Part shown: positions 6,601 to 64,000 of the stretch, in pieces
Layout of the letters: each line of letters begins with the position of its first letter
Numbering within the stretch: position 1 is the first letter of the stretch
Assembly (NCBI GenBank): GCA_018857735.1
Contig: JABMCL010002815.1
Span: 769,501-833,500, forward strand
Direction of reading: 5' to 3'
From: Alviniconcha marisindica
Lineage: Eukaryota; Mollusca; Gastropoda; Provannidae
Length of the DNA stretch: 64,000 nt
Made by a program: the position numbers and the translations under genes
Notes under the pieces: generated by a model
What the model was told of the DNA's origin: nothing
The model's database searches: none
Seen by the model: only the letters and a program-made list of their open reading frames with translations

Positions 6601-9600
6601 TAGGTATGATTGCCATTTTCTGTGACTGGCCGTTGCCATTTTCTGGGACTGTCCATTGCCATTTTCTGGGACTGTATGGCCATTTTCTGGAACTGTCCAT
6701 TGCCATTTTTGGGGACTGTCCACCTCTCAGCACTCACTTCACTGCTGCCAAACTATGAATTATGAGGAAGAAACAGTTTACCCAGTCACAAGACAGTAAT
6801 ATTAAAGATTTGATCAAGCAATGGGCTGTGCAGTCTGCATGGCCTATTTGAAGGATCTGTCTCAGAATTGTATGTTTAAGATGCCGGACTGCGCCAAAAG
6901 CTGTTTGTTATTGTTGGGGAAATGAGGTAATTATGTAAAATTGTGCAGTTGATTATTTTATGCTTTCTAATTTTAGGTAACTCTTTTTTGTTGTTTTTCA
7001 AGCAGGTTAACTGTGTAATTTCAGTGGGTTACGAAGGTGCTGCCTGTGAGTGACACTACTTACACCGATGCATGCTACATTTCCACAGGTTCCAGATTAT
7101 TATGAGATTATCAAGAATCCTATGGATCTGAGTACCATGATGTCCAACATTGACCTGCACAAGTACAGCACCGCCAGTGCCTTCCTTGATGACATCTTCC
7201 TCATCTGCAGCAACGCCTTGGAGTACAACCCAGACCGAGGTCCCACAGGTAGAGGAACTGTCAGGCCTGAACTGTGTCAGTGATTGCATTAGACAGTTTT
7301 CAAACCAGTATGACATCTGTAAAAGTGGCATGGGAATTGTCCGCAAAAACAGATTTCCACAGCATGAAACTGACTTTCCATTGGGGGAAAGAACTGTTGG
7401 AGGGAGGGGGGGTGGGGTTACAGTTTTTTAACTCCATTTCAAACATGTGATGAATGCCAGATTTTGCATGGTGGTAGTACCAACTGAGCTTTATTCGCTT
7501 GTTCCCTCTTTCAATGGCCTTGGGGGTATCTTGAAGTCCGAGCCGGATTTGAATGAGTTAAAATGCTGTTTACCATCTGTAACTCATCGAACTGCAGTTG
7601 AAATGTTGGTAGTCCATGGGCTTCGTCAGTGAAATGCGCATGTGTTGCCAGTGACGGCTGAATGTGTGTTTTTCTTTTCATGCAGATCGTGCAATTCGTC
7701 ACCGTGCATGTTCTTTGCGAGACATGGCTCAGGCATTACTGAAGGCAGAGTTGGACCCAGAGTTTGAGAGGCTTTGTCATGAGATCACACAGTCCAGAAA
7801 ACTCCGGGGTGAGTGTCTTTGTTGGCATGTGCACAGTCCAGAAAACCCAGGGTTAAGTGTCTTTGTTGCTACATGGACAGTCCAAAACTGAGGGGTGTCT
7901 TTGTAGAACTCACGGTAAGTGTCTTTGTTGCCATGTGCACAGTCCAGAAAACTGAGGGGTACATGTCTTTGTTACCACATGCAGTTGTTGCCAGTTTTTG
8001 TAGTCATTTGAGTGGCAGGGTCATCCTTGAGGACAAAACTGTATGAGTACTTTTCAAGTGCATTTTTGTGGTCACAGATTTGTGCATTTCCATCAAAAAC
8101 TGGTCATTTTGGAATCTGATGTCTGCACGTGGCAAATAAGAATGCACATGGAATGAGGCCAGGTTCAGGTCATTTATTGCACATTTTATACTTTATATGA
8201 AACAAATTCTAAGACAGGACAAACGGGTAGTTTAAAGAGTAGACTCTTTTTTTCTTTTCTTTTTTAAGGCTGATGAAGGACTACAGTACCACATGTAGAT
8301 ATTATGTTTTAAGAATAAGAAATTTCTAGTTAAAATATTAGTGGGTCTCATGGTCTCTATCATTTCCAGAGCAAAATGAAAATAACTAACTTGGTGTTTT
8401 ATGCCCAGTCATCCAGCAGGGTTATATCAGGGCAAGAACAAAATGAAAACTGGCCCAGCATACATGTATATTGTCTTAATAATAATAATGATTATTATTG
8501 TCTTGTTCCATAAACCCCCTCCAGCCACCCTTTAAACATTTTCCGCATTGTTCTCCCTAGGCATCGATTCTTCAAAAAGTGCTCCTGCCTTCTACCGCAC
8601 CCGCCCACTGGATGCCATAAACGGTGCATCGTGCCCTCGGCTGCCTTCAGAACAGTCTGCCGTTCACGCCAACGTGGTCCCTGAGGGGTGCCGCTACAGC
8701 CGTCGTGTGCGAGGCCTGGAGGCGGACCGCACCCTGCCGCTGGAAGCTGTGGAGAGGACGGCGCAGGTGGAGAAAACTCTCCTGGCAAAGTCCCCGGAAA
8801 AAGAGCAGGCCAGTGCAGCTGAGGAGGCTCCGGAGCCAGCGGCTGGTGACACGGTCATCAGCACCGGTGATGAGCCTGCGGACAGCAGCAGCAGTAAAGT
8901 GGACGGTGCGGACCACCGTCAATCTCAGGACGATTCTGTGGAAGTGGAGAACCGCAAGGAGGCCGCTGCTGCTGCTGATCTGTCTGACTGCAAGTGCCCT
9001 GGCTCCACCACCAAAAGCCTTAGTCCCATCCACTCCAAGAGCACCCCTAAAGGCAGCAGCAGCGGCTACGGCAAGCACTCGTCCTCCTCCGCAGCCGCCA
9101 AGAAAGCCAAGCAGCGCAACAAGTGCCCCTGGCTTTCCACCCGGCGCCGCCGCCGTCCATACAGCCACTCCCGCGGGAACGAGAACACAAGCCCCCGCTC
9201 GGACGTGGGTGAGCACTCCTGCGAGGAGCCCATGGACATTGTGCACAGCCCCACCACAACAGGTGACGACGGCTGGGCCCGAGCTCCGAGGAGCTGTCGT
9301 GAGCACTCCCCTGTGTCTGCGGCAAACCCTGCCAACGTGAACGTCCCCTCCAGTGCCCGGACACGCAGCTGCAGCAGCAGCAATGACAACATTCCCATTT
9401 CCCAGCAGCATGAGGCCAGTTCCGCCGCCGAGGGCGGCAAGCAGAAGGGCTCCTTCAACAGCCCGGCCGGGGGGGACGTGGGCGCCAAGCCCCTCAAAGC
9501 TGGCGCCGCCCGCAGCCTTGACATGGATTTGATGATTGTGGCTACGGACAGCGGCCTGGGCAGCGAGAGCAACGGGGACTCCAGGGACAGTCTGGACCAC

Positions 9601-19753: not shown

Positions 19754-19789
19754 TCACCTTGGGTATCGTTCCACAATCATCGCATGCCC
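19754..19789 (-). CDS. HADHB: HADHB last coding exon (36 nt), parent of the adjacent repeat array
   Basis: After the acceptor ttttacag the exon reads GGG CAT GCG ATG ATT GTG and ends in TGA, encoding [11 protein letters not shown]. The preceding exon ends GGCGGTTTG|gtaagc. The exon's first 20 nt and its acceptor are the template of the minisatellite filling the intron just upstream in transcript direction. Confidence 0.93.
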   Translation of the reverse strand, partial: GHAMIVERYPR

Positions 19790-22700
19790 CTGTAAAACAA
19801 ACATTGTTCCAGTCTTTACATGCCCCTGTAAAACAAGCATTGCTCCACAGTCATGGCGTGCCCCTGTAAAATAACATTGTTCCACAGTCATTACATGCCC
19901 CTGTAAAACAAGCATTGCTCCACAGTCATGGCGTGCCCCTGTAAAATAACATTGTTCCACAGTCATTACATGCCCCTGTAAAACAAGCATTGCTCCACAG
20001 TCATGGGTGCCCCTGTAAAATAACATTGTTCCACAGTCATTTTCATGCCCCTGTAAAACAAGCATTGCTCCACAGTCATGGCGTGCCCCTGTAAAATAAC
20101 ATTGTTCCACAGTCATTACATGCCCCTGTAAAACAAGCACTTTCTCCACAGTCATGGGTGCCCCTGTAAAATAACATTGTTCCACAGTCTTTACATGCCC
20201 CTGTAAAACAAGCATTGCTCCACAGTCATGGCGTGCCCCTGTAAATAACATTGTTCCACAGTCTTACATGCCCCTGTAAAACAAGCATTGCTCCACAGTC
20301 ATGGCGTGCCCCTGTAAAATAACATTGTTCCACAGTCATTACATGCCCCTGTAAAACAAGCATTGCTCCACAGTCATGGCGTGCCCCTGTAAAATAACAT
20401 TGTTCCACAGTCATTACATGCCCCTGTAAAACAAGCATTGCTCCACAGTCATGGCGTGCCCCTGTAAAATAACATTGTTCCACAGTCATTACATGCCCCT
20501 GTAAAACAAGCATTGCTCCACAGTCATGGCGTGCCCCTGTAAAACAAGCATTGCTCCACAGTCATGGCATGCCCCTGTAAAATAAACATTTTTCCACAGT
20601 CATGGCGTGCCCCTGTAAAATAAACATTTTTCCACAGTCATGGCGTGCCCCTGTAAAATAAACAGATTATTGCACAGTCACGGCATGTCCCTGTAAAATA
20701 AATGGACTGTTCCACAGTCATGGTGTGCCCCTGTAAAATAAATAGTGTTCCACAGTCATGGTGTGCCCCTGTCAAATAAAGTGTTCCACAGTCATGGTGT
20801 GACCCTATAAAGACTGTTCCACAGTCATGGTGTGCCCCCATGGTTCAGGAGCTGTGTGGGAGTCGAGGTGGATGTCCTGGACTGTCTGTCCTAACGAGCC
20901 TTCTGGTTTCCGTGGACGTAAAGATTTATTGCACCGTGCTTTGGCATTGGTCACAACTTGTCCCTAATATGTCAACTGACATCTGAGGACATAAAGCATC
21001 ACTTCATCATCATCATCATCATGGTGTGCCCCTATAAAACAAACAGATTGTTCCACAGTTATGGTGTGCCCCAGTAAAATAGTGTTCCACAGTCACGGTG
21101 TGCCTCTGTAAAATAAACAGTGTTCCACAGTCATGGCGTGCCTCTGCAAAATAAACAGATTGTTCCAGTCACGGTGTGCCCCCGTGAAATAAACAGCTTA
21201 TTCCATAGTGTGCCCCCATAAAATAAACAGCTTATTCCGTAGTCATGGCGTGCCCTAGTAAAATAGATTGCTCCAGTCTTGGTGTGTGCCCCCATATAAT
21301 AAACAGATTGTTCCACAGTCATGGCGTGCCTCTGTAAAACAAACTTCCACAATTACATGCCCCTGTAACAATAAACAAACTGCTCCACAATCAAAGAGGG
21401 TAGTATTTGCACAGAAGCACGTCGTGCAGAAAAGCTTTGTTTCAATGCTTACCAAACCGCCAGCAGCACAGGCTGCCACCAGCGCAAACTGTCCGTCTTC
21501 TCTGTGTAGTCGGTTGGCTGCTGTTGTCACAAGGCGTACACCGGTGGCGCCAAACGGGTGTCCAAGAGAAAGCGACCCACCCCACAGATTCAGCTTGTCC
21601 ATTGAGGGGGCACCAGCCTTCATGCGATGAAACAGAAGGGAGAAGGAGGGGAGGGACAGATGTCGAATCAAATTTGTGCATGAAAGAGACAGGTGTCAAA
21701 TCAAATTTGTTCATGAAAGAGAAGTGCAATCTATAAAATTCCATGTTTTACGGTGCTGCATCTCTCCCAACTATGGTGAGTACATTGCACTTTTACAAGC
21801 ACTTCTGTCTGTCACCGTAATGCTAGAATCACAAACCTGTAAAAGTGTAACGGTTTTAACACTATGACCTGAACACATTTGAACAAACAAACAAAACCAC
21901 CAAAAAAGACCCACAGACCTGTAAAAGTTTAACAGTTTTAACACTATGACCTGAACACATTTGAACGAACAAAACCACAGGAAAAAAAAAAACCCACAAA
22001 CATTTAACATAATATTCTGCCTGGTAGTGATAATCACTAAGAGTTCCACATCAAGCTTTGTCTAGAACTTTTGCAAAGCACCAAAGCAGGCACTGCTCAC
22101 AAGCAAACAAAAAATGCTTTGCCATGAGATGAGAGTTGGCTGCTTAGGCAGGTGAATCTGTCAGAGCTAGTATTCCCAAGGGAAAATAACTGGCATGTCA
22201 TACAGGCTGTTTAAGAGTACATGTCTGATTTTTGCACCCACGAAAAAGAAAAAGTAATTGTTTTTTGCATTAATTTTATTTTATTTTTTAGATTAACTTT
22301 CTATCAGTTTTATTATTTTCATGCTGTGGTTTGAGCTCAACTGAAGCAAAAATGAACGTGTTCACCAACAGAAACGAACAATTTACATCGCCCCAGAAAC
22401 GCTGATGTCAAATCAAACATACATCTGGGACAAGTTACTGCAAAATGCACTGAATGGCAAAACAGCCCCAAACACAATAAATAATCAAGCCCTGAAATAA
22501 ACACCCCAGAATTTGTGGATTTGTCTTGTTGATCATACGGGAATTTCAACTGTACGGACAAAACGTACAGCATGCAAAAATAAATTTGACAGTAAGCTGC
22601 ACCCTTTCAACTTTTTCTTTGCAACATAGGATGTACAACAACAAAAAACAAAGGCTTAAAAACAAAAAACAAAGTTAACAGCAACTTTTTCTTCTCTGAA

Positions 22701-25700
22701 GCTACATTGATAGTTGATGCTCATTTCTTCTCTGAAGCTGCATTGATAGTTGATACTCACCTTGCCTTTGCGTCCCATCATGTTGATTCCAAACCAGTCT
22801 GAGTCCAAGGCTTTCATGTTGGCCAGAATTTGTCCCTGCATCATGTACACACACAATGTTATCTCTCTCTCTCTGTGAGGGCTGCTGACATGGGCGACCC
22901 ACCACAGACACAAGCCACGCAACATCGAAGCGTTAAAATTTACCTGGAGTGGCTCCACATGTTAAATCAGTCATGCCATGTAACATTGCTACATTGTGAT
23001 GATTGTAATTACCATGCAGTGGTATCAGCTGAATGTTTTGTTGAAAAGACTGCCATGATTATGCATGCAAACGTTTTGTAGAACAGACTGCCATGATTAT
23101 GCATGCACTAATGGCTTTATTGGAAGGTTCAGTGCCTTAAATTCTCATAATCAGTATTATGACTAGCTAACATGACTGAAAGACCATAGCTATACATGCT
23201 TCTCTTCTTAATCACCCTTTGTAGTGTGTAACGTACAAAGCAAAGACAACTTACAGCAAAAGCCTCATGGTATTCAAAGACACTGATGTCAGAAAGACTC
23301 AGTCCAGCCTTGTGAAGAATGCGAGGAGTAGCATAAGCGGGCCTGTCGAAACAACAATAAACATTCACATGTCTGCTGAAACAACAATGAAACATTCACA
23401 TGTCTGCTGAAACAACAAGGAAACATTCGCACCTCTGCCAAAACAACAATGAAACATACACATGTCTGCTGAAACAACAATGGAAGATTCACATGTCTGC
23501 CAAAACAAGGAAACATTCACATGTCTGCCAAAACAACAATGAAACATGTCTGCCAAAACAACAAGGAAACAATCACATGTCTGCTGAAACAACAAGGAAA
23601 CATTCATGTGTCTGCTGAAACAACAATGAAACATTCGCATGTCTGCCAAAACAAGGAAGAAACACCGACATCTGCCAAAACAGCAATGAAACATCCACAT
23701 GTCTAATGAAACATCTAAATGTCTGCCAAAACAACAATGACACATTCACATGTCTGACAAAACAACAATCAAACATTCACATCTGCCAAAACAATCAAAT
23801 ATTCACGTCTGCTGAGACAACAATTAAACATTTACGTGTCTGCCAAAACAACGACACATTCACGTCTGCTGAAACAACAATGAAACGATTCAGGTCTCTA
23901 TTGTTGTGTTCATGTGACATCTTTCAAGTGCCAACTAACCCTCTTTATTTGTGTATTCTACACAACCTCATTCTGTTTTTGTTGTTGTTTTTTGTTAGCT
24001 AGGCACAGCACTGTGAGGCTCTTGTTCATAAAGCATGTGCATTCATCCAGTTACAATACATTCGCTCACTGATTTGTACATCTTTGCATGGTTCTATCCC
24101 CACAACATCCTCCGCACCCAATGGTACTGGCTAATGAACAGTGCACACAATGGTTACTTATTCTGTTTCTAGATTATTGCCGAGCTGTTTGACATACTAA
24201 CCCCACACCCAATGGTACTGGCTAATGAACCGTGCACACAATGGATACTTATTCTGTTTCTAGATGATTGCCGAGCTGTTTGACATACTAACCCCACACC
24301 CAATGGTACTGGCTAATGAACCGTGCACACAATGGATACTTATTCTGTTTCTCGATGATTGCCGAGCTGTTTGACATACTAACCCCAGTAGCAGCTGGTC
24401 CTTGGGATCCTGGGCAACATAGAGGAAGTCTCGGAGGTAGGCAATTGGCTTGTATCCCATCGCCAGCGCTTTGTCCTCTGCCATGATGAGGCATGCTGAG
24501 GCGCCGTCAGTCTGCAAAACACACCTTCCAAACTGAACACTGAGCGAGTCAGGTGGTGCACCCCCAATTCTGTGGGGGGCTACGCCACACAATCACCTAC
24601 CCTTACCAGTCTAACAGAGATGAGAACAAACGCAATCATCCAACATTTTATTTTCTACAAAAACAGCGCTGCCACATGCATGTGTGGTGTTAACCTTTCC
24701 CGCATCCAAGAACCAAGTTTACTTGTGTCACAATCAGAATCTTAGTCACTTGTGCAAAACCTTAATGAACTTTATCCCATAATAAGTCAACAAGGACCGA
24801 GTTTACTTGTGTCACGATCAGAATCTTGGTCACTTGTGTAAATGAACCTCTTCCCATAAGTCAACAAGGACAACTTCACTTGTGTCACAACTGAGAAAAT
24901 CCTTAATGAACCTCTTCCCATAAGTCAACTCCACTTATCTTTAGCTGTTGTTTTGCTTGCTTTTGTTTTTACCAAAATTCGCCCTGACATAAACATCCTG
25001 GCTGACTGGGCCTAAAAAACTACTATGACAGCTATTTCACCAAAATAAAAACCTCGCCAAGTTTAGCATATGAGCACTCTGCCATAGGCCTGAAGCTCTG
25101 AACACTCACCAGAAAGGAAGCATTGGCGGCAGTTACTGTGCCATGTGGTCTGATAAAGGCCGCTTTCAGTTTGCCCATGGCTTCCAGGGATGAGGGTCGA
25201 ATCCCGTTGTCTCTGTCTACTGGGGCAGCCACTCCTGCGGCAAAACAAAAGACACACAGCACAAGCTGACTTCAACACATTCCAACGGAAATTTTAGAAG
25301 ACACACAGGTTTATTCATTTCCAATGTTGGAGAATGGAAAGGACAGATTGGCAATGCTGTCAAACCCACCTGGCACTTTGTAAGTGAGGCGGTCGGTCAG
25401 CAGGCCTTGTTCTGTTGCCCGATGGGCCAGGGTGTGTGACCGCAGGGCAAACTCATCCTGTAACGTAAGTAAGGAAGTAAACATGGTGCTTAAAGTCCAC
25501 AGAAACCATAAGGCTTATTAGGGACAGGGAGAATAGGGAGGGAAGGGGGGAGAGAGGGGGTATGGAGGTGGGGGGAGAGGGAGAGATTATACACCTATCG
25601 CTACACCGTCACCACCAGAATGACTTCTGCATTAAGGTGGAGCGATGAGAGCCATTTTAATGTTTCATAACTGTGAAAGGCAAAGTCACAAAACAGTGTC

Positions 25701-30635: not shown

Positions 30636-30713
<78 letters not shown>

Positions 30714-38145: not shown

Positions 38146-38193
<48 letters not shown>

Positions 38194-38683: not shown

Positions 38684-38742
<59 letters not shown>

Positions 38743-38860
38743 TCACACGTACACACACTCTCTCACTCACACACATACACACACACACATGCACACACTC
38801 ACACTCTCTCTCTCTCACTCACACACCTATACAGTCTCTCACTCACTCACTCACTCACCA

Positions 38861-38924
<64 letters not shown>

Positions 38925-39688: not shown

Positions 39689-39755
<67 letters not shown>

Positions 39756-42700: not shown

Positions 42701-42858
42701 CCGCTCAAAATTCTGGAGGTTGGTACAATGAAATATCCCGTAATTGTATCTGTCCTCTACTGTACTGTGCTGCTTTCTGGTCCCACCCATCCACTTTTAT
42801 GTGGCTTTTTTTTCTTCTTCATCGTGTCCTATGTTTTACTAAAGAATTTGTGCAGTTA

Positions 42859-42927
<69 letters not shown>

Positions 42928-45900
42928 CTCACCTTTATTAATTTTTAACATAGGTGAGAGAGAGAGAGTATGTGTTTGTGAGCTCACACCTTTATTAATT
43001 TGTAATGTGCACAGGTGTGTGGTACGTGCATATATGTGGTTGTGTGTGTGCGCGCGCGTGCATCCACTGTATATATATATTAAGTGTGTGTGTGAGTTCA
43101 TTGTTGAGTTTGTCTTTACTTTGTTATGCGTGAATGTGTCTGTCTGTTTTTTTTGCACATCTGCATGAGAGTGCCTGACTGTGTCTGTGTTGACACCCTT
43201 ACTTGTTACAATGCTAGTACTCACAGTGAGTGTCCTGTACACAACAGGTGGTGCGAACTGGTCTGGACAAGGGGCTGGACGCTGGCTACAAAGCAGAGTC
43301 TGAGGTCAGTGACGCTTGCACATTGAGGTGTTTGTGACACTTGCACAGTGAGGTGTTTGTGACACTTGCACAGTGAAGTGTTTGTGACACTTGCAGTGAG
43401 GTGTTTGTGACACTAGCACAGTGAGGTGTTTGTGACACTTGCACATTGAGGTGTTTGTGACAATTGCACAGCGAGTTGTTTGTGACACTTGCACAGCGAG
43501 GTGTTTGTGACACTTGCACAGTGAGGTGTTTGTGACACTTGTACTGTGAGGTGTTTGTGACACTTGCACTGTGAGGTATTTGTGACATTTGCACAGAGAG
43601 GTGTTTGTAACACTTGCACATTGAGGTATTTGTGACGCTTGCACAGCAAGTTGTTTGTGATGCTTGCACAGCGAGTTGTTTGTGACACTTGCACATCAAG
43701 GTATTTGTGTCACTTGCACATCAAGGTGTTTGTGTCATTTGCACAGTGAGGTGTTTGTGACACTTGCACAGTGAGGTATCAGTGACACTTGCACAGTGAG
43801 GTGTTTGTGACACTTGCACAGTGAGTTGTTTGTGATGATCATAGAGGGGTTCTGTACGGTGGTGGTCATAACTGAGGGGTTCCATAGGGTGGTGGTCATA
43901 ATAGAGGGGTTCTGTAGGGTGGTCATAGAGGGGTTCCATAGGATGGTCATCAAAGAGGGGTTTTGTAGTGAGGTAATCATAGAGGGGTTCCATAGGATGG
44001 TCATCAAAGAGGGGTTTTGTAGTGAGGTAATCATAGAGGGGTTCTGTAGGGTGGTGGTCATAATAGAGGGGTTCCATAGGATGGTCATCAAAGAGGGGTT
44101 TTATAGGGAGGTAATCATAGAAGGGTTCTGTAGGGTGGTCATCATAGAGGGGTTCCATAGGATCGTCATCAAAGGGGTTTTTTGTAGGGAGGTAATCATA
44201 GAGGGGTTCTGTAGGGTGGTGGTCATAATAGAGGGGTTCTGTAGGGTGGTCATCATAGAGGGGTTCCATAGGATGGTCATCAAAGAGGGGTTTTGTAGGG
44301 AGGTAATCATAGAGGGGTTCCATAGGATGGTCATCAAAGGGGGGTTTTGTAGGGAGGTAATCATAGAGGGGTTCTGTAGGGTGGTGGTCATAATAGAGGG
44401 GTTCTGTAGGGTGGTCATAATAAAGGGGTCCTGTAAAGTGTAAGGTGGTCATAATAGAGGAGTTCTCTAATGTGGTCATAAGAGAGGGGTTCTCTGAGGT
44501 GGCCATACGAGAGGGGTTCTGTAAGGTGGCCATAAGAGAGGGGTTGTCTAAGGTGGCCATAAGAGAGGGGTTCTGTAGTTGGTCATAAGAGAGGAGTTCT
44601 GTAGGGTGGTGGTCATCATAGAGGGGTTCCGTAGGGTGGTCATCATAGAGGGGTTCTGTAGGGTGGTCATCATAGAGGGGTTCCACCACAGCATGCATCC
44701 TTGGGACGTCTCTTCAGAGCTTGTGGTTTTATGAACACTCCCTCTTCCCGTTAGGCGAAGTCTCCCTCCCTCTCCCCACCTCCTGGGAACTTGGGGGGCC
44801 CCCTGCCAGTGCCTCTTCAGAGACCAACTCCGCGTTTATTAGACGAGTTTAACCAACTGACCAAACAAGCGTGCGTGCATGCTCAGCCGTGATGAGTGTG
44901 CGGGTGTTTTTGCAGGGGTTCGGTGAGCTGGGGATGACCCCAGAGTCCAAGGCTCTCATCGGGCTGTACTACGGGCAGACTGCCTGCAAAAAGAACCGCT
45001 TTGGAAAGCCTCAGCGACCGGTCAAGTGAGTGCGCCACAGCTGTAACCATGCTATCTAGCGCATTTGGCAAAGTTGGGTCTGTCGCTTTTTTTTCTCAGG
45101 CTTCCGACAAAGACCAAAAGCGACTGCCTTGGCGTTAATTGTGAAAATGGAGTGGCAGTAGTATGGCGTCTGAACTGTGAAGTGATGGGTGTGGATATAT
45201 CACATGTGAATGTAAGATGAGTAGGTGAATGATCTAATCTGTGTTTAAATGGTGAGATAAAAAAAAAAAAAAAAAAGTGCCTTGAAAGCTTCTGAAAAGT
45301 TGGTGAATTGTGGATTGAAATATTTGGACAAATCCTGGTGCAGGTATGATTAAAAAAATCAATAAAAAAAAATCAGTGGTTTATTTTCTGTCTGTTCACA
45401 GCAATTAGACCAAAAAACTAAAATGACAAAAATCTGATTTTTTCATCATCTTCAGTATGTATTACTAACTTAAGTTATATCAACTTACCCACATGATCAC
45501 AAACAATCAATTTGGCAACATAAATTATGACATTGGCATTATACAAAATGTCTCTTACATTGTTACATGCAACAAAGTTGAACCCATCTTTCCTAAACAA
45601 CTCTTGTATTAGGATGCAGCATGACTGAAAAATAACGGCGACATTTGCAGGACACTGGGTGTGCTTGGCGCTGGCCTGATGGGGGCGGGGATTGCTCAGG
45701 TGAGCATCGACAAGGGCATCCAGGTCCTACTGAAGGACATGAACGCCCAGGCTGTGGGCCGCGGGCAGGAGCAGATCTTCAAGGGGCTGAACGAGCAGGT
45801 CAAGCGCAGGAAGATCACCAGGTAGGCCTGTCCCGGAGAGCTGCTCACTTGTCCGTTTGCGTATGCCAGCATTGCCAGCGTTAACCCTTTCGGTCCCTGG

Positions 45901-48900
45901 CAGAAATCTTCTACGTTTTTGCTTTCATGGCCCAGCATTGGTTCAGCAAGGAATAGTGCTGTAGAAAACTGATTTATTATTATTGGTATTGTAGAGAGGT
46001 GTCGGTGGTTATCTTGGGTACTTTGAGAGGAAAGTGTCACCAATTGGGAGACAAACAGTTTTTCACATTAAGATTCAGAGTTTTTATTCACCCAGTTTAA
46101 CGGCTAGAAAGTGTTGCTTGGGAGAAACAGATTTTCAGATTCAGATTTTTTTTATTCACCATGTTTAACAGTAGGAAAGTGTCTTGAAAAGCAGTGAGCA
46201 TACAAACGTAAACAAACGACAACACTGACGTACGTCAGCTACACCTGTCCACACCAACAACAACACACACCAACACACATACACGTCCATGCATGCACCC
46301 ACATACACACACACACATATGCACACATGCAACGTCCCCACCCCCACCCAGCCACACCCTTATAGGTAATGGTCCAATTTGTAAAATATAGTCCTAGGTC
46401 TAAGTCTAACACAAAGCAAAGTAGAAGTTCAACACACACACACACACACACACACATGCTCATGCAATGTTGTCTGCAACTTCCAGTCAATAATTTGGAT
46501 GAGGTTAGGTAGTAGATTTTAATGTCCTGTCAAACGCATGACAGGCCGTTCTGGGTCACCCCAGGACAAAACAGTTTTATGAGGCATGGTTCATGTCAGA
46601 AGAATATGTTCATAAGAGTGGGAGGATAATAATCAGGACTTGAAAACACTGTTCATAAGGGTGTATGAGGAAATAGGGGCTCAGAGATGTTCATAAGAGC
46701 TGATAGTGAAATATTAGAAATATTAACGCGTGATGGTGTTCATAGTGTCAATAGTTATAGCTTGAAGAAAATGTTCATAAGAGAGGATAGTGAAATGGGC
46801 TTGACAGTATTTATAGTGTCGATAGTTATGGCTGGAAGAAAATGTTCATAAGAGTGGATAGTGAAATGTCAGGGCTTGAAGGTGTTCATAAGAGTGGATT
46901 GTGAAATATGGGGGCTTGAAGATGTTCATATGAGTGGAAAGTTAAATCCCAGGGCTTGAAGATGTTCATACGAGTGAATAATGAAATATCAGGGCTTACA
47001 TATTAAGATAAATGTGGTGGGAGATGTTGCAGTGCTGCAGATATATTTCATGATAAACGTGACTAACTGTTTTGCCGTTGATGTTTCTGTGCCCTAGCTT
47101 TGAGCGCGACCACATCTTGTCCAACCTGGACCCCACCATCACGTACGACCGCTTCGGCAGCTGCGACATGGTGGTGGAGGCCGTCTTTGAGGACATCAGC
47201 ATCAAGCACAAAGTCATCAAGGAAGTTGAACCTGTAAGTTCTCAGCTGGTAACCTGCTGCCACCCTCGTTGACGTTACTTTCAACTGTCGCCCCTTTTTG
47301 TGCTGTCGGGGGATCTGTAATTGTCACTTGCAGGGAACAGATTTTTGAACATGTTGGTAGGGTGAGGGGTGGGGGGAACGGGGAAGAAGTGAGCTCTGTT
47401 TATTCTCATGTTTCCTGACCAGTGACATTCTGTGTGTGTGTGTGTGTGTGTGTGTTTTCCAGGTCATTCCAGAGCACTGCATTTTTGCTTCCAACACATC
47501 AGCTCTGCCCATCACACGGATTGCTGAGGCCAGCATGAGACCCGAAAAGGTACTGTGATTCTCCAGGGTTCTGTCTACGTTCTTGGAAATAGATGAGGAC
47601 CCAGATCTGAGTTCTGATGTCATGTTCTGTGTGTGGTGGTTATGTTAGAGAGAGAGATAGGAGAGAGAGAGAGAGAGAAAGTGTTGCTGTCATGTTCTCT
47701 GTGTGGTGGTTGTGCGGGGGTGGGGCAGTAAGTGTTGCTGTCATGCTCTGTTGTGTGGTGGTTGTGCGAGAGAGGGGGGGGGGGGGGGGGGAAGAGAGAT
47801 CGTTTGATGTCATGTTCTGTGTGTGGTGATTGTGCGGGTGTGGGGGTGGGGCAGTAAGTGTTGCTGTCATGTTCTGTGTGTGGTGATGGGGCAGGGGTGG
47901 GGGTGGTGCAGTAAGTGTTGCTGTCATGTTCTGTGTGTGGTGATTGTGCGGGGGTTGGGGTGGGGCAGTAAGTGTTGCTGTCATGTTCTGTGTGTGGTGT
48001 GGGGGGGGGGTGGGGCAGTAAGTGTTGCTGTCATGTTCTGTGTGTGGTGATTGTGTGGGGGTGGGGCAGTAAGTGTTGCTGTCATGTTCTGTGTGTAGTG
48101 ATTGTGCGGGGGTGGGGCAGTAAGTGTTGCTGTCATGTTCTGTGTGTGGTGGTTATGTTTGAGAGAGAGATAGGGGAGAGAGAGAGAGAGAGAAAGTGTT
48201 GTCATGTTCCGTGTGGTGATTGTGTGGGGGTGAGGCAGTAAGTGTTGCTGTCATGTTCTGTGTGGTGATTGTGCGGGGATGGGGGTGGGGCCGTAAGTGT
48301 TGCTGTCATGTTCTGGGTGTGGTGGTTGTGCGAGAGAGAGGGGGGAAGAGAGATCATTTTGATGTCGTGTTCTGTGTGTGATGGTTGTGTGAGAGTGAGA
48401 GAGAGAGAGAGAGAGGCAGTATTGATGTCACATTTTGTGTGGTGGTTGTGTGAGAGAGGGAGAGAGAGAGGAGGGGAGAGAGAGATAGTAAGTGTTGATG
48501 TCACGTTCTGTATGTGGTTGTGAGAGAGAGGGTAAGCATTGATATCACATTCTGTGTGTGCTGGTTGTGCGAGAGAGAGGGGAGGAGAGAGAGAGAGAAA
48601 AGTGTTCATGTTGTGTTCTGTGTGTGGTGGTTGTGTGAGAGAGAGAGTGGGAATGAGAGATAGTAAGTGTTGATTGGCATGCACTATGTGGTGGTTGTGT
48701 GAGAGAGAGGAGAGAGTAAGTGTTGACGTTGCATGCTGTGGTTGTGCAGGTGATTGGCATGCACTATGTGGTGGTTGTGTGAGAGAGAGTGGGGAATGAG
48801 AGAGAGAAAGTGTTGACGTTGCGTGCTGTGGTTGTGCAGGTGATTGGCATGCACTGTGCGCTGGTTGTATGTGAGAGAGAGAGAGAGAGATAGACAGTGA

Positions 48901-51900
48901 CAGTGTTGACGTTGCGTGCTGTGGTTGTGCAGGTGATAGGCATGCACTGTGCGCTGGTTGTATGTGAGAGAGAGAGAGATAGACGGTGACAGTGTTGACG
49001 TTGCATGCTGTGGTGTGTGCAGGTGATAGGCATGCACTGTGCGCTGGTTGTATGTGAGAGAGAGAGAGATGAGACGTGACAGTGTTGACGTTGCATGCTG
49101 TGGTGTGTGCAGGTGATAGGCATGCACTGTGCGCTGGTTGTATGTGAGAGAGAGAGAGAGAGAGAGACGACAGTGTTGACGTTGCATGCTGTGGTGTGTG
49201 CAGGTGATAGGCATGCACTGTGCGCTGGTTGTATGTGAGAGAGAGAGAGAGAGACGGTGACAGTGTTGACGTTGCATGCTGTGGTGTGTGCAGGTGATAG
49301 GCATGCACTGTGCGCTGGTTGTATGTGAGAGAGAAAAGAGGAGAGACGGTGACAGTGTTGACGTTGCATGCTGTGGTGTGTGCAGGTGATAGGCATGCAC
49401 TGTGCGCTGGTTGTATGTGAGAGAGAAAAAGAGGAGAGAGAGACAGACAGTAAGAGTTGACGTTGCATGCTGTGGTGTGTGCAGGTGATAGGCATGCGCT
49501 GTGCTGCGGTTGTATGTGAGAGAGAAAAGAGGAGAGGAGAGATCAGACAGTAAGCAGTTGACGTTGCATGCTGTGGTGTGATGCAGGTGATAGGCATGCG
49601 CTAGTGCCGCTGGTTGTATGTGAGAGAAAAAAAGGGACCGGAGACAGACAGTAAGAGTTGACGTTGCATGCTGTAGTGTGTGCAGGTGATAGGCATGCGC
49701 TGTGCGCTGGTTGTATGTGAGAGAGAAAAAGAGGAGAGAGAGACAGACAGTAAGAGTTGACGTTGCATGCTGTGGTGTGTGCAGGTGATTGGCATGCACT
49801 ACTTCTCCCCTGTGGACAAGATGCAGCTGCTGGAGATCATCACCACCAAGCAAACATCCACGGACACCGCAGGTGAGATGAAGAGGCGTTCGCTGGAAGC
49901 TCCCAGAAAGATGTTGGGACGCCAAAATTAGGTCCCTTAACCCCTTCACTGCCCCAGCATGTAAAATTTCTGGGCAGAAAAGTGCACATATGCGCCTGAA
50001 AACAGTACATTTCCTGGTCCTGTAATGAATCTGATTTCACTAGTGTGGGTTTTGATGAAAATCCTCTCACATGCGAAAAACACATAAAAGTTAATGATTT
50101 CAAATTTCCTACTTCTATTGGGTTTTTTTTTAAAGTGACACCACGGCAGTGAAGGGGTTAAAAGTAGCTGCTTTAACAACAGTGATATGAGAGTAATAAA
50201 GAATGAGTGGTTTTACTGTTTAGTTAATCAGCCATCTCAACGACTGGCTGAAGCGTCTCGCCACTAATGATGTTGAGAAAAAAATTAATCCACCTGGGTA
50301 TTCTGTTACCAGAAATGTATTTACCTCTGCCCCAACTTCCCCCTTAACGAAGTGGGAGTGCGGGAGCTTGCATCACTTTGTCCAGCTGTCTGTCACTGTC
50401 CATCTCAGATCTGTGTGTGTCCATGTTTGAGCTGATGAGCGTACAAGGGTGACTGAAGCGAGCTTTGCTGTATGTTCACAGCTTCAGCAGTGGATGTGGG
50501 ACTTCGACAAGGCAAGGTGGTCATCACCGTCGGGGACGGACCGGGCTTCTACACGACCCGCATCCTGGGACCCATGCTGGCTGAGGCCATCCGGCTCCTG
50601 CAGGTACGTTCCTGTTTCCGTGGTGTGTCTTGGAACCTCTGCAGGTATGTTCCTGTCTCCGTGATGTATCTTGGAACCTCAACAGGTATGTTCCTGTCTC
50701 CGTGGTGCGTCTTGGAACCTAGACAGGTATGTTCCTGTCTCCGTGGTGCGTCTTGGAACCTCGACAGGTATGTTCCTGTCTCTGTGATGTGTCTTGGAAC
50801 CTCTACAGATATGTTCCTGTCTCTGTGATGTGTCTTGGAACCTCTGCAGGTATGTACCTGTCTCCATGATGCATCTTGGAACCGCTACAGGTATGTTCCT
50901 GACTCCGTGATGTGTCTTGGAACCTCGACAGGTATGTTCCCGTCTCCGTGATGCATCTTGGAACTGCTACAGGTATGTTCCTGTCTCCATGATGCATCTT
51001 GGAACCTCCTGCAGGTACGTTCCTGTCTCTGTGATGCGTCTTGGAACCTCCGCAGGTCAGTTTCTGTCTCAGTGATGCGGCTTAAAAACCTCTGCAGGTC
51101 CGTCTGTCGCAGTGGTATGTCTTGGAACCTCTGCAGGTTGCTAGTGCATCTTTCAAGACTGCTTTTTCTAATACCTTTCTATGTAAGTGAACACCTTGAC
51201 CAAGGGCCACCCTTCTTTTAGCACCACTTTTTCTCCACTCTCAGTCTCTCTTATTGTATTGGGCATGACCCTGGGAGTAGCGCAGTAGAAGTGATCAGGA
51301 TATTATACAGATACCACACAACAGTCTTGCACCGTAGCATGGAGAGAAAAAAATTCTGGAAATACCTTATAGTGCAGGATTAACCCAAACCTGCATTCTA
51401 GCCGTGATGACTGTCAGGCAAGCGGCCCGCGCTGCCCATCATGGAAATGCATTTGCATTGACGTAGAGAGCTGCTGCTCTTTGTCCAACCTGCCTGTACA
51501 CGTGTGTGTGTGTGTTTTCTGTTTTTTTCTTCATCAGGAGGGTGTGTCTCCGAAACAGCTGGACAAGCTGACCCGAAAAGGAGGCCTGCCTGTGGGAGTC
51601 GCCACCCTTGCTGACGAAGTTGGTGTGGATGTGGCAGCGCACGTGGCGGAGGATCTTGGGAAGGCGTTCGGAGAGAGGTTTGGGGGTGGCGACATCAACT
51701 TGCTGAAGGAGATGGTTGGCAGTGGATTGCTTGGTGAGTTGGGTTTTTTTTCTTCCAGAAATGTTTTCATTAACATTTGTTGAGTGATTTGTACTAAAAT
51801 GTATCGAAAAGAGTTATCAGTGCTCACCAGACTAAGGGATACATGACTGGGTTTTTTTCTTCATTTTTTTCATCTGCCACTGGCCTCAACATGCAGTTCA

Positions 51901-54596
51901 GGTAAATGGTGTAGACAGAGGATTTAAAAAAATGTTTTATGGCTCGGTTTACGGCGAGCATTGGTTGCATAACTCACTGGTTGTGACTGTTCTCTGGTTT
52001 CAGGCAGGAAAGCTGGCAAAGGATTCTACACATATGAAAAGAACAGCAAAAACAAGTCCGAGAATGATGAAGCCTTGAAGCTGTTGGAGAAATACCGCCT
52101 AGAATCCAAAACAGAGTAAGTTCTGGGTGAATCAGTTGTTGTTTTTACTTCTTTTTTGTTGTTGCATGTGGCAACTTCTTAGTGCAATGTTGAGTTTGAC
52201 GGATGTTAAAACCAGGTTAGCAGACGCCCCCCCCCCCTCCCCCCACCCCACCCCATGCGTTAAGCTTCCTGGTGTAAAAAAGAAAATTAAAAATTAAAAA
52301 AATTATGGAACACTTGCAGCAAGATTTCACTTTTTGAGGTGTTTATCATCAACTTGTGCTTTGTTTGGTATCGTTATTATACTAACCTGGTTTCAAACAA
52401 AATATGTTCAGTGAAATGAGCATCTGTTGTAATTTCTAAGCTGACGTGCACTTCAGAATTGTTTCTCTGATAGCTTCATGATCTTAGAGGTGGGAAAAAT
52501 CCAAGTACTGATGGGAGGGGAAAAAAATACTGAAAGTTTTTGTTCCTGTTTTTCCTTTTGTAGGTGGCAGGTAAACCAGGGTCCAAACCTCACGCATGAA
52601 CTTTTTTTTCTTTTTCAGACTGTCTGATGATGAAATCTGGTACCGCCTCTTCTCACGCTTTGTCAACGAGGCTGTCTACTGTTTGCAGGACGGAATCCTC
52701 GCCAGCCCTGTGAGTACAATGTGTACAGCATTGGCTTTCTTTCTGGCTGATCAACAGAACTCTTGCCTGACTTGTTTTACCTGGAGAGCATCTGTCTGAA
52801 CAAATAATGCAACATGCGGATATTATAGTCCACTGTTTGTTCTTGAGATGAAGCAATCCTGTCCTTCCAGAATCCGTGTCACAAAACCAAACTTATTTTT
52901 ATCTACTTCAGTCACAGTTCATGCAGAAATGGACTCACTTTATTGGCAAATGATCGGAAATGTATGTAGTTTTTAGATGTTGCATTCCCAAGCCGTGTCA
53001 TTATACAGCGAGTCCATTTTCAGAGAGATTATGGCTTTGATTGTATTTTGCAGGTTGATGGCGACATCGGTGCGGTCTTTGGACTCGGCTTCCCCCCATT
53101 CTACGGTGGTGAGTGGTGCAGGTTTCTTTGCTGGCGGATCTGTTAAAGTTGTGAGCCCTCTTGAAGGGGCTGTACTTGCCTCTGCCATAATTGGTTATGC
53201 TGTTGAAGGGACTGTACTTAACTCTGTCATAACTGGTTATGTTGGTGAAGGGGCTGTACTTGTCTCTGCCGTAATTGGTTACACCATTAAAGGGATTGTA
53301 CTTACCTCTGCCATAATTGGTTACACCATTGAAGGGACTGTACTTAACTCTGCTGTAATTGGTTATGCTGTTGAAGGGGCTGTGCTTAACTCTGCCATAA
53401 TTGGTTAAGCAGTTGAAGGTGGCTTCCAATTAACTTTGGTGTAATTGGTTATGCTGCTGAAGGGGCTGTACTTGACTCTGCCGTAATTTGTTACGCTATT
53501 GAAGGGGCTCTACTCAGCTGTTTGTATCTGTCTACGAAAATGTGTCCTTTGTCTCAAACTGTCGGCACTCTTTATAAAATTTGAACACCAAGACTGGAAT
53601 CACCATAGTGTCGGAATGTGCACTTAAACATTGGGCATGTCTGTCCCGAGTAAAAAATCTGTTCTGGCTCAGTTTAAATAATATTGTTTTTTTTTGTGCT
53701 GGGGTACTGGTAGGCATTGTGAGCAGCTAAAACAGAAGTGCCCGATATAAATCTGAGTTGCCTGTTGCAAACATACTGCCATTTGAGCACCGATGAAACA
53801 CTATCAGCAGACCGGTTTTGTTGTTTGTTTTTGTTTTGGTGTTTGTTTGTTTTTAAACCTTTAGCATAATCAGTTATGGCAGTGGTTGAAGGACAGATAT
53901 TATAAACTGATGCTTGGCATTTCCAATGAGAACAGGCAGTAGCAGGTGAGATGTGCAACTTTGTCATTGTTATCAGAAACGATAGACTACCAATCAAAAA
54001 AGAATGTAAAAATAGAAGAAGCACAGATTAGGGTGCAGATGACGACTGCCTCCTGGAAAAGAAACCTGGGTTTGCTTTGAAGGGGTACCCAGCTGAAATT
54101 GATTATTTGTTGTTGTTTTTGAGGTGTATGAGTTCTGTATACATGTGCAAGAAAAGCATATCTGCTGGTTATGTGAAGAAAGAGTGTGTGTGTGTGTGTG
54201 AGAGAAAGAGAGCATAGTGTGAGGAATACATTTTTTTTAAATTTGGCTTCCAGGAGAACATTTTGTGCAGTGAAACCCCAGACGATCCCATTTCAAGACC
54301 ATTTTTCTCAGACCTTTCCCATCATACTTTCATGCAAATAAATTCCTAACCCAAAAGAGATGTTCCACAGTATTACAAAAAGTGAACCCATCATGTCGGT
54401 CTTTTTTTTTCTCTCCCTTTTTAAAAAACCCATGTTTCCATCACTGTCAGGTCCTTTCCGCTACCTTGACCTTCACGGCGCTGGGCAGCTTGTGACCCGG
54501 ATGGAGCGGTACCAGGCGCTGTACGGAGACCAGTTCAAACCCTGCCAGCTACTGGCAGACCACGCCAAAGACAGCAGCAAGCGTTTCCACACCTAA
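34039..54596 (+). CDS. HADHA: Mitochondrial trifunctional protein alpha subunit (long-chain enoyl-CoA hydratase / 3-hydroxyacyl-CoA dehydrogenase)
   Basis: Twenty-one coding exons: 34039-34105, 35812-35856, 36413-36483, 37667-37800, 38383-38521, 39122-39344, 40051-40120, 41000-41055, 42600-42718, 43248-43304, 44916-45025, 45651-45821, 47098-47233, 47463-47549, 49785-49872, 50482-50603, 51538-51733, 52004-52115, 52619-52709, 53054-53108, 54451-54596 (TAA). All phases join, giving 764 residues (human 763). The N-terminus [20 protein letters not shown] is Arg-rich and fits a mitochondrial presequence. The hydratase part has both catalytic glutamates, Glu152 (GGGLE) and Glu174 (GVPEV). The dehydrogenase part has the NAD fold GAGLMGAG (370-377) and the dyad His500 (GMHYFSP) / Glu512 (MQLLEII). 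Glu512 aligns with human Glu510, the common LCHAD-deficiency site. The C-terminal dehydrogenase lobes follow, ending [17 protein letters not shown]. It works with HADHB in one inner-membrane complex. Intact by every visible residue. Confidence 0.97.
36650..36850 (-). mobile_element. Dispersed (GT)n-linked repeat, copy A
   Basis: Reversed, it reads (GT)n, then cagctgggtgtttgctagta, cagctc, and ccgtgaaccatctt. The same order occurs at 39686-39890 and 62225-63050. It lies in HADHA intron 3. Confidence 0.65.
37810..38250. repeat. (CA)n/(GT)n microsatellites and a G run in HADHA intron 4
   Basis: The intron 37801-38382 is mostly GT-rich (37810-37930) then CA-rich text (37985-38205), with a pure (CA)n tract near 38145-38190 and a run of about 20 G at 38225-38246. 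Confidence 0.9.
38640..38945. repeat. (CA)n microsatellite in HADHA intron 5
   Basis: Two long (CA)n runs (about 38690-38740 and 38865-38925) with (CACT)n between them. Open frames of His-Thr repeats here are artefacts. Confidence 0.92.
39686..39890 (+). mobile_element. Dispersed (GT)n-linked repeat, copy B
   Basis: (GT)n, then gagtgtttgctggtacagtc, tatggacggctgtgagtttg, and tatgaaccactttcccc. It is followed by a small minisatellite (gaaagtttgaaaaatgtc, near 39895-40012). It lies in HADHA intron 6. Confidence 0.65.
40138..40520 (+). mobile_element. LINE 3' end (CR1/L2-like) in HADHA intron 7
   Basis: The + strand translation contains [20 protein letters not shown] then SLDSFKSSI, the conserved C-terminal end (FG...WN.LP..LR...SL..FKS) of CR1/L2-type ORF2. 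The tail reads ttgcgctctgtaaatgcttt then aattattg, as in other mollusc LINE ends. A dead, 5'-truncated copy. Confidence 0.7.
41255..41590 (-). mobile_element. LINE ORF2 C-terminal fragment, antisense in HADHA intron 8
   Basis: The - strand frame 41585-41259 encodes [15 protein letters not shown], then a Cys/His region [16 protein letters not shown]. This matches the C-terminal zinc-knuckle region of non-LTR retrotransposon proteins; the usual last Cys is an Asn here. The ends are truncated. Confidence 0.7.
41690..42640. repeat. Minisatellite of about 64 bp copying the HADHA exon 9 acceptor
   Basis: The unit is gactctttgttactgcagg, ctggaatgtttctttcac, ag, then atgatggactttgtcctgtc and ctac. 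The last unit is the real junction tttctttcag|AGGTGATGGACTTCGTCC of exon 9 (42600). About 13 copies precede it. Each carries about 25 nt of exon-like text, and most keep an AG at the acceptor position. Confidence 0.93.
42860..43100. repeat. (GT)n and (GA)n microsatellite in HADHA intron 9
   Basis: A pure (GT)n tract at 42861-42906 runs into (GA)n; a weaker GT-rich part follows to about 43100. Confidence 0.9.
43300..43830. repeat. 27-bp minisatellite starting at the HADHA exon 10 donor
   Basis: The exon end ctgag|gtcagtgacgcttgcac leads straight into about 19 copies of tgag|gtgtttgtgacacttgcacag. The exon-intron text GAG|GT sits at the same place in each unit. Confidence 0.9.
43831..44690. 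repeat. Second minisatellite in HADHA intron 10 (about 33-36-bp unit)
   Basis: The units are built on tcatagaggggttctgtagg and gtggtcatcaa. About 26 copies follow directly on the 27-bp array, with an edge near 43830. It stops about 220 bp before exon 11. Long open frames (PLYDDHPTE repeats on -, VIIEGFCR on +) are artefacts. Confidence 0.9.
46590..46995. repeat. Degenerate minisatellite in HADHA intron 12
   Basis: The core gttcataagagtggatagtg and aaat..cagggcttgaagat recurs about nine times with variable spacing, ending about 100 bp before the exon 13 acceptor. Confidence 0.8.
47615..48660. repeat. Minisatellite in HADHA intron 14, 5' part
   Basis: The units of about 45-55 bp read gtaagtgttgctgtcatgtt, ctgtgtgtggtgattgtg and then G- or GA-rich text. 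Each carries gtaagtg, a good donor-like string. It grades into the next array. Confidence 0.88.
48660..49800. repeat. Minisatellite of about 90 bp copying the HADHA exon 15 acceptor
   Basis: The unit reads gttgacgttgcatgctgtgg, tgtgtgcag|gtgataggcatgcac, then ggttgtatgtgagagaga. The real junction is tgtgtgcag|GTGATTGGCATGCAC at 49785. About 11 upstream copies hold the acceptor and 15-18 nt of exon text, the first with gtgattggcatgcacta unchanged near 48750. Confidence 0.93.
49937..50161. mobile_element. piggyBac-type MITE (TTAA-flanked) in HADHA intron 15
   Basis: The ends are perfect inverted repeats: ttaaccccttcactgcc at 49937-49953 and its reverse complement at 50145-50161. TTAA at both outer edges is the target duplication typical of piggyBac elements, giving a core of 217 bp (49941-50157) with terminal CCCCTTCACTGCC. 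No coding capacity. Confidence 0.8.
50592..51140. repeat. 41-bp minisatellite copying the HADHA exon 16 donor
   Basis: The exon end ctcctgcag|gtacgttcctg is followed by about 13 units reading cctctgcag|gtatgttcctg then tctccgtgatgtgtcttgga. Almost every unit has a consensus-quality CAG|GTATGT donor and a CTGCAG acceptor-like string. Confidence 0.93.
53145..53515. repeat. 42-bp minisatellite in HADHA intron 20
   Basis: The unit is gaaggggctgtacttaactc then tgccataattggttatgctg. About eight copies, starting some 40 bp past the exon 20 donor; the unit does not include the junction. Confidence 0.88.
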
Positions 54597-60349: not shown

Positions 60350-62223
60350 CACAGGAGTATGCACACACATATGTACTCATGCACACATACACATTTCGTC
60401 AACATTGTAGATCAGGAAAACTGAATAAGAACCTGATTGCATGGAAACTAAGAGAATGTATAAACTATAATGATCAAAACTTATCCCTGTGGTTACTCCC
60501 AGTGATGAAGGGAGAAGACAGTGAAGTGCTAAATGTCCACCAACCGAAGAAGAAGAAAACAGTGGTGCGTTGTGTGTCCACCAACTGAAGAAGAAAAGGA
60601 TGTGCTAAATGTCCACCAACCGAAGAAGAAGACAGTGCTGTGCTACATGTCCACCAATCAAAGAAGAAGACAGTGATGTGCTAAATGTTCACCAACTGAA
60701 GAAGTAGTGATGTGCTAAATGTTCACCATCTGAAGAAGATAGTGATGTGCTAAATGTTCACCAACCGAAGAAGTGATGCACTAAATGTCCACCAACTGCA
60801 GAAGACAATAGTGATGCACTAAATGTCCACCAACCGAAGAAAAAAACAGTGATGCACTAAATATTAAATGTCCAACAACTGAAGAAGAAGACAATAATGT
60901 GCTAAATGTCCACCAACCGAAGAAGACAGTGATGCACTAAATGTCCACCAACTGAAGAAGAAGACAGTGGTGCGCTAAATGTTCACCAACCGAAGAATAA
61001 GAAAACAGTGATGCGCCAAACGTCCACCGACTGAAGAAGAAGAAGACAGTGATGCACCAAATGTCCACTAACCGAAGAAGAAAACAGTGACACACTAAAT
61101 GTCCTGCCACTGAAGAAGAAGACAGCGATGCGCTAAAGGCCCCCCAACCGAAGAAAAAAACAGTGGTGCACTAAATGTCCACCAACTGAAGATGAAGAAA
61201 ACAGAGTGGCACTAAATGTCCACCCAAAAACCAAAGAAGAAGAAGTGATGTGCTAAATGTTCACCAGCTGAAGAAGAAGAAGTGATGCACTAAATGTCCA
61301 CTAACTGAAGAAGAATAGGGTGATATGCTAAATGTTCACCAACAGAAGAAGAAGAAAACAGTGACGCACTAAATGTCCACCAACTGAAGAAGAAGAGGGT
61401 GATATGCTAAATGTTCACCAACTGAAGAAGAAGACAGTGATGCGCTAAATGTCCACCAACTGGAGCAGAAGACAGTGATGTGCTCATTGTTCACCAACAG
61501 AAGAAGAAGGAGAGAACAGTGAGGCACTAAACGTCCACCAACTAAAGAAGACGACTAAACAGTGATGCACTAAAACGTCCACCCACCTGAGTAGCAATGA
61601 GCAGAATATCCACAAGCTGACCCAGGAACATGAAACCCAGCGTCGCAAACTTCACCAGTCCTGCCGGCAATAGAAACGTTCTGCCAGCGTTAAGCAGTGA
61701 TGACAAACAAACACTGACCTACGCTGCTGATTCATGCTCAAGAAAACCTGAAAACTAGTCCTGGGAACCCAGGGGTGGCCGAGGTTCTGACCATGTGCAA
61801 AGAAAGCGATGCAGAGAAATTGCATCTCTGTACAGAATTCAAACCAGGATCTGGCTAACCCCCCCCCCCCCCCCCCCCCAACCCACCCCATCCTCTTTTT
61901 CTCTCTCTAAAAATAAATCAAAAACTCGAATTTCAGGTTTCAGATCTATTTGAATTTGTTTTTTATTTCCTGCCCAAAAACTGAAGCATAAGGCTTACTA
62001 TACATTCCAGCTGGTATTTCATCCATCTATATCATCACCAACAGCAACAGAACTTGTAGAACATCATTCACTAGTTGGGTGTTGTTGTTTTTTTGGGTGG
62101 GTGGGTGGTGGTGGGGGTGGGGTATGGGGTTGGGGAGTTGGAGGGGGAAGTTCAGTGAGCATGTTGTTGCAGCATAGACGATGACTGCAACTGAATATGT
62201 CCACCAACCTGGCTGCTCTGTAA

Positions 62224-62547: not shown

Positions 62548-62608
62548 TGTGTGTGTGTGTGTGTGTGTTGTGTGTGTGTGTGTGTAGGTGTGTATGTTTG
62601 TGCGTGTG

Positions 62609-62656
<48 letters not shown>

Positions 62657-63257: not shown

Positions 63258-63259
63258 CT

Positions 63260-64000
63260 GGGAAGGAGATGAGATCATTTCAGTCACTCACTTCAATGAA
63301 TATGAACAGCATACGAGGTAATATTAATCACTCACTTAAATGAATATGAACAGATCATATTAATCACTTAAACGAATATTAACAGCATATGAGATCACAT
63401 TATTCACTCACTTCAATGAATATGAACAGCATACAAGATCATATTAATCACTCACTTCAATGAATATTAACAGCATACGAGATCATGTTAATCACTCACT
63501 TCAATGAATATTAACAGCAAACGAGATCATGTTAATCACTCACTTCTATGAATATTAACAGCATACAAGATCATATTAATCAATCACTTCGATGAATATT
63601 AACATATATATTCATTGAAGTGAGTGATTAATATGATCTCGTATGCTGTTCATATTAACCACTTACTTCAATGAATATTAACAGCAAACAAGATCATGTT
63701 AATCACTCACTTCAATGAATATTAACAGCATACGAGATCATGTTAATCACTCACTTCAATGAATATTAACAGCAAACGAGATCATATTATTCACTCACTT
63801 CAATGAATATTAACATATATATTCATTGAGGTGAGTGATTAATATGATCTCATATGCTGTTCATATTAATCACTCACTTCAATGAATATTAACAGCATAT
63901 GAGATCATATTAATCACTCACTTCAATGAATATTAACAGCATGCGAGATTATATTAATCACTCACTTCAAAGAATGTTAACAGTATATGAGATCATATTA
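63260..64000. repeat. 44-bp minisatellite next to a TM2D1 acceptor, with two inverted modules
   Basis: The unit tattaatcactcacttcaat, gaatattaacagcatacgag, atca repeats to the window edge, beginning about 14 bp from the acceptor ttcccag|C of exon 63257-63166. Two segments (about 63606-63655 and 63814-63870) are unit copies in reverse, joined by acatatatattcattga, so they can form hairpins. Confidence 0.9.

Follow-up and report, generated by a model that had tools for sequence, protein, structure and literature searches.

Eleven tandem arrays located at exon-intron boundaries of four genes in a 64-kb window of snail DNA (the window being the whole stretch analyzed here) are probably mirage-type minisatellites, that is, duplications across or beside a junction which would have expanded within the intron and which need no function for the organism. 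An earlier sequence-only reading had placed arrays at these boundaries, and all 11 were recovered by TRF at the same positions. Their units measured 25-91 bp, which corrects the range of 27-91 bp given before.

Four animal genes were identified in the window, an ATAD2-like gene (+ strand), HADHB (-), HADHA (+) and a TM2-domain gene (-), the last of which was called TM2D1 in the sequence-only reading. The conceptual proteins of the ATAD2-like and TM2-domain genes matched the Pfam families Bromodomain and TM2, respectively. The HADHB draft (367 aa) aligned over its full length with a solved trifunctional enzyme subunit, and residues 9-188 and 193-675 of the HADHA draft (676 aa) aligned likewise. 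The nearest named proteins among the matches listed were all from caenogastropods. For HADHA the closest named matches listed were from Pomacea canaliculata (80% identity), Batillaria (79%), and Nucella and Babylonia (78%), one further listed match reaching 84%; for HADHB they were from Babylonia (91%), and Nucella and Littorina saxatilis (90%). No named amphioxus protein occurred among the 120 matches listed in the HADHA or HADHB searches, and amphioxus was rejected as the source of the DNA on this ground.

Exons were placed by spliced alignment, splice motif and reading frame, which resulted in 41 exons and 79 junctions. The HADHB gene (19754..30858, -) was represented by 12 placed exons with one or more missing, and the HADHA gene (36413..54593, +) by 19 placed exons in a single open frame, its 5' end not being placed. 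The frames of the HADHA and TM2-domain exons were open throughout and that of HADHB from 29028 onward. The ATAD2 frame was broken, a short exon being missing between 9627 and 10789, and one HADHB exon is missing between 30716 and 29033. The placement omits the outer exons of the genes and one or more exons of both ATAD2 and HADHB, so that a few junctions are absent from all counts given below. HADHB and HADHA are arranged head to head, with their first placed exons (30858 and 36413) about 5.5 kb apart; the vertebrate genes are arranged head to head too. The Batillaria HADHA model is without the ten residues that start the 50482 exon here, reflecting either a gene-model error or an altered acceptor.

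In the ATAD2-like gene, the exon at 7686..7808 (+), with its donor at 7808/7809 placed by motif and frame, is followed by a donor array (7788..7990, +) whose 44-bp unit includes 21 nt of exon. Four arrays belong to HADHB, all on the minus strand. The acceptor array of HADHB-15 (19768..21344), at the last coding exon (19754..19789, its protein end agreeing with relatives), has 38- and 75-bp units containing 22 nt of exon and has a break of about 180 bp that does not belong to the repeat. The acceptor array of HADHB-12 (23332..23892, acceptor 23342) has 31-bp units with an exon part of at most 11 nt, seen in gapped alignment only. The donor array of HADHB-11 (24115..24387, donor 24384) consists of three 91-bp copies at 97% identity with 4 nt of exon. 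The fourth array, HADHB-13 (22688..22759), consists of two 36-bp copies that begin at the second intron base, adjoining the donor at 22761, and the copy reads AT for GT; it had been listed as a donor-type array before, and it adjoins the junction only.

The HADHA arrays, all on the plus strand, comprise the acceptor array of HADHA-9 (41711..42624, acceptor 42600; 66-bp unit with 25 nt of exon), the donor array of HADHA-10 (43293..43835, donor 43304; 25-bp unit, gapped alignment showing an exon part of at most 12 nt), the acceptor complex of HADHA-15 (47679..49800, acceptor 49785) and the donor array of HADHA-16 (50595..51138, donor 50603; 41-bp unit with 6-9 nt of exon). The HADHA-15 complex ranges from 57-bp to 90-bp units, the latter (48722 onward) carrying 13 nt of exon; the complex was treated as one array, its units being of putative common origin. 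TM2D1 (minus strand) contributes a donor array (60513..61600, donor 61587; 38-bp unit, gapped alignment showing an exon part of at most 14 nt) and an acceptor array at exon 63257 (63271..64000; 44-bp unit), which runs off the window. This last array ends 13 nt from the acceptor, in agreement with its earlier description as abutting only. Of its cores, 14 share one orientation and two (63607 and 63818) are inverted, so parts of it could form hairpins.

The presence of the junction within the unit was examined at two levels. In a strict test (ungapped, with a minimum of 6 nt both in the exon and in the intron, 79 junctions), five junctions lay in a tandem duplication: ATAD2 7808, HADHA 42599, 49784 and 50603, and HADHB 19789. 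In a gapped test, 32-nt junction probes were compared with the adjacent intron, other introns serving as control, for the 75 of the 79 junctions with a known intron. Thirteen of the 75 reached the floor p of 1/151, for about 0.5 expected, and 10 of the 13 belonged to the named arrays. The other three were not counted: TM2D1 63166 and TM2D1 60056 scored barely above control, and HADHB 30716 lies beside a CT repeat. TM2D1 63257 was outside the best 26 junctions (p at least 0.35), and the probe match of HADHB 22761 was confined to the intron side. The claim that the arrays contain the splice site plus a piece of exon was therefore borne out for nine of the 11 arrays (five in the strict test, four through gapped alignment or an overlap of 4 nt), while those at the HADHB 22761 donor and the TM2D1 63257 acceptor adjoin the junction only. 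Unit-by-unit alignments displayed the splice signal within the unit, most clearly at HADHB-15, HADHA 42600, HADHA 49785, ATAD2 7808 and HADHA 50603. At HADHB-15, nearly every copy has TTTTACAG and then some 20 nt similar to the exon coding for GHAM...

The units of different arrays had been said to share no sequence, and they do look unrelated. Among all 55 array pairs compared by shuffling, of which the best 8 were listed, six gave p<0.05, the lowest value (0/100) being that of ATAD2 with HADHA-10. Shared ancestry of these six pairs was rejected, their similarity being putatively splice-like or T-rich.

The arrays might simply be random intronic duplications in a repeat-rich genome, seen in an eye-catching window, and we regard this as unlikely. 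Tandem units occupied 17% of all positions in the window and 18.8% of the non-exonic ones, and the five junctions of 79 (6%) inside tandem duplications are below the latter value, so that coverage gives no excess at junctions, as expected by chance. Coverage overstates the expectation, because a founding unit multiplies into many copies while the junction stays single; as expanded arrays inflate this measure, it did not serve as the main test. Arrays were instead counted. Every array was reduced to a single copy within its intron, single units were given random positions in the shortened introns, and touching was defined as lying across a junction or within 14 nt of it. Eleven of the 20 intronic arrays touched a junction against an expectation of 2.1-4.3; P was 2.5e-6 to 4e-4 in this post hoc comparison from one window, and a second calculation agreed. 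Arrays with at least 8 nt of exon numbered eight, gapped overlaps included, against 0.95-2.7 expected (P from 0/400,000 draws to 1.5e-3); the five strict arrays alone gave P = 0.002-0.11, a range that leaves more room for chance. The same eight gapped-inclusive arrays were compared with a null in which entire arrays were randomly positioned in the same introns, as the sequence-only reading had proposed for overlaps of at least 8 nt, and within this window 1.3-1.9 were expected (19 arrays; P = 5e-6 to 1.2e-4).

The definition of the 20 arrays has a bearing on these values. Three arrays (14670, 14743 and 17945) fell outside annotated introns and were excluded, and this exclusion, like the post hoc choice of the window, favors chance. 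Microsatellites and simple-sequence rows (e.g., 29317, 30275 and 30412) were also outside the 20. The rows at 19768-21344 (19765 in the scripts) and 47679-49800 were each merged as one array. The TM2D1 63258 intron leaves the window; it was set to 3 kb in the 'own' single-unit nulls and excluded from whole-array placement. The sequence-only reading had named overlap equal to that expected from array density as the outcome that would speak against it; plain coverage agrees with such an outcome (18.8% against 6%), while the array counts do not, and its claim of an excess at junctions is upheld by the latter within this one window, post hoc. A putative duplication hot spot at junctions is favored over chance.

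The junction arrays were longer than the others (median 550 vs 163 bp, P = 0.012). This is what arrays would show if they started within introns and spread outward until exon constraint stopped their growth, an explanation that we consider improbable. Such growth would not put exon sequence into the unit, yet exon sequence was detected in five arrays by the strict test and in nine by the looser one. A pair of young arrays, with 2 and 3 copies at 94-97% identity, already begin at the donor. It also predicts edges at both junctions of an intron, but the far ends of HADHB-15, HADHA-15, HADHA-16, the TM2D1 donor array and HADHA-9 lie 108 to 655 nt away from the opposite junction. The explanations weighed here overlap, and their probabilities are not meant to sum to one.

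In polar minisatellites, turnover is concentrated at one end. Polarity was measured as the identity of each copy to the array consensus against its distance from the exon in eight testable junction arrays, with HADHB-15 represented by its block A only and HADHA-15 by its 90-bp part only; ATAD2, HADHB-11 and HADHB-13 had too few copies. With both end copies dropped, identity fell away from the exon in seven of the eight arrays, with p<0.05 in four; among the remaining slopes two were near zero and one was slightly rising. The sign count of 7/8 alone gave p=0.07. With all copies kept, six of eight slopes were negative and one had p<0.05, and the removal of end copies was decided after this result had been seen. 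No polarity trend was detected in the non-junction arrays a24 (both analyses) and a18 (all copies kept). These slopes suggest the greatest turnover at the exon end and growth from the junction, as in polar minisatellites.

The conceptual HADHA and HADHB proteins displayed no insertion or deletion at array-bearing junctions when compared with six relatives each, an alignment that covers these two genes and thereby eight of the 11 arrays, the ATAD2-like and TM2-domain genes being outside it. The exon-proximal copy therefore gives the conserved protein and is probably the working one there, the exon sequence being the source and the decoys its copies. The decoy consensus of the TM2D1 donor array has TT where GT is expected, and the HADHB-13 copy has AT. 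Splice sites were scored with a position matrix built from array-free junctions (32 donors and 36 acceptors), and every GT or AG in the array regions was scored, homologous or not, with the TM2D1 63257 array outside the scoring. The GTs of the donor arrays rarely equaled or exceeded the working donor (0/28, 4/30, 0/3, 0/75, 1/66 and 0/91), one ATAD2 decoy (7914) coming close with 8.7 vs 8.9 for the working site. For the AGs of the acceptor arrays the corresponding values were 16/70, 0/29, 27/48 and 10/241.

The rows of spare sites could have been selected to regulate or buffer splicing, through alternative ends, retention or intron size, which appears very improbable. The acceptor decoys do remain strong, and AG letters were kept at 36/36 in HADHB-12 (18/18 scored decoys), 22/22 in HADHA-15 (11/11 scored decoys), 26/26 at the consensus AG of HADHA-9, which lies two bases off the working acceptor, and 55/56 in block A of HADHB-15. 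Block B of HADHB-15, however, retained 12/18, below its surroundings. When the dinucleotides were compared with other bases, only one of eight rows (seven arrays; ATAD2 without result) was significant, namely HADHB-12 (36/36 vs 84%, P = 0.003 uncorrected). Many copies retained AG or GT in the acceptor arrays, HADHA-16, HADHA-10 and HADHB-11, whereas retention was absent from the TM2D1 donor array and HADHB-13 and mixed in ATAD2. Within the arrays, conservation of the decoy dinucleotides is close to that of other bases and not convincingly better. Amphioxus mirages, moreover, are reported not to disturb regular splicing (PMC3087553). There is no good evidence for a selected function of the arrays. 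In the frame that closes with the genuine stop codon, positions 19757-20263 of the HADHB array stay open for 169 codons, and a decoy acceptor, if used, could thereby append a repetitive tail.

Mirages were reportedly first described in amphioxus Adh3. In two reports, their repeat unit spans the exon-intron boundary and includes the splice signal and a piece of exon, donor and acceptor types occur, many copies retain AG or GT, the authentic section adjoins the copies, and copy number is unstable between haplotypes and somatically (PMC3087553, PMC3902484). The units given there are 150-160 for the globins, 60 and 108 for PGBD5 and 10-72 for Adh3 (PMC3087553, PMC3902484); the PGBD5 repeats abut or overlap splice sites, and TnC is mentioned too (PMC3902484). 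The snail arrays resemble the amphioxus globin and PGBD5 cases so described in anatomy, with the junction in the unit, both types, AG/GT copies and some abutting arrays. The host differs, cephalochordate in the reported cases and caenogastropod here, which concerns range and not structure. The snail window also differs in that nine boundaries are spanned and two abutted within 64 kb, by units of 25-91 bp as against the amphioxus sizes given above, and the snail arrays are known from the DNA of one haplotype. In the structural features open to comparison at the level of DNA, the snail arrays fit mirages, the mollusc host and the high density setting them apart.

In human segmental duplications, variable internal tandem repeats with a mean unit of about 30 bp occur at exon-intron boundaries and are reported to alter transcripts and create new introns (PMC2812944). 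They are likewise minisatellites at exon-intron boundaries, with transcript effects reported for them and DNA alone for the snail arrays. Intron gain by tandem duplication places a new intron inside an old exon. The duplication carries splice signals in such gains, as summarized in one report (PMC4974935). The snail duplications likewise carry splice signals, but would lengthen an existing intron instead of making a new one. Intron minisatellites occur in an abalone gene (PMC6905558) and in earthworm metallothionein genes (PMC12783039), junction spanning not being stated in the parts of these reports consulted. The literature matches listed, taken at the level of titles and abstract beginnings, included no molluscan or other non-amphioxus mirage, and the mirage reports among them were from amphioxus only.

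A mirage-type origin of the snail arrays would begin when some tens of bases, lying over or immediately beside an exon-intron boundary, were duplicated in tandem. Splicing would go on using the copy attached to the complete exon, and the others would become intron, where units could be gained and lost through slippage and unequal exchange. Exon definition may keep the exon-proximal site in use, decoy donors persisting mainly in weakened form, and junctions may have some tendency to duplicate, the arrays growing at their exon end. The junction in the unit, enrichment at the level of arrays, the indel-free HADHA and HADHB proteins, the weaker donor decoys, polarity and the amphioxus parallel all argue for such an origin. 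Against it stand the lack of excess by coverage, the four of nine spanning cases resting on gapped low-scoring alignments or 4 nt, and the weaker polarity with all copies kept. The AGs of acceptor arrays, moreover, often match the working acceptor in strength, which does not account for their putative silence.

The sequence-only reading had proposed a directed or selected process. Selection is not borne out, since decoy dinucleotides are not convincingly better kept and hardly any GT of the donor arrays scores as high as the working one, and a directed process in the form of a duplication hot spot at junctions is weakly favored by polarity. The high density of arrays in the window likewise hints that splice junctions are duplication-prone. 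It is possible, though we hold it only tentatively, that junctions in the snail lineage are hot spots where a transcription- or splicing-linked process seeds minisatellites, the exon end being the growth point from which introns lengthen outward, and that this is shared with amphioxus. If so, mirages would recur among animals and would continually supply decoy sites and new introns. Mollusc mirages at about one in nine annotated junctions (9/79) would make boundary duplication a broader route of intron growth. They would provide natural test sets for how the spliceosome chooses one among many nearly identical sites, and might account for wrongly annotated exons in snail genomes.

Comparison of an ATAD2 exon with plasmids gave no match, and no tRNA (ARAGORN, bacterial code) or Rfam family was found in the window. 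The segment at 11100-11220 resembles a tRNA-derived SINE by eye, with no tRNA found there by ARAGORN. A young array of three 54-bp copies (98% identity) is located at 3570-3732 in an ATAD2 intron, inside a long open frame.
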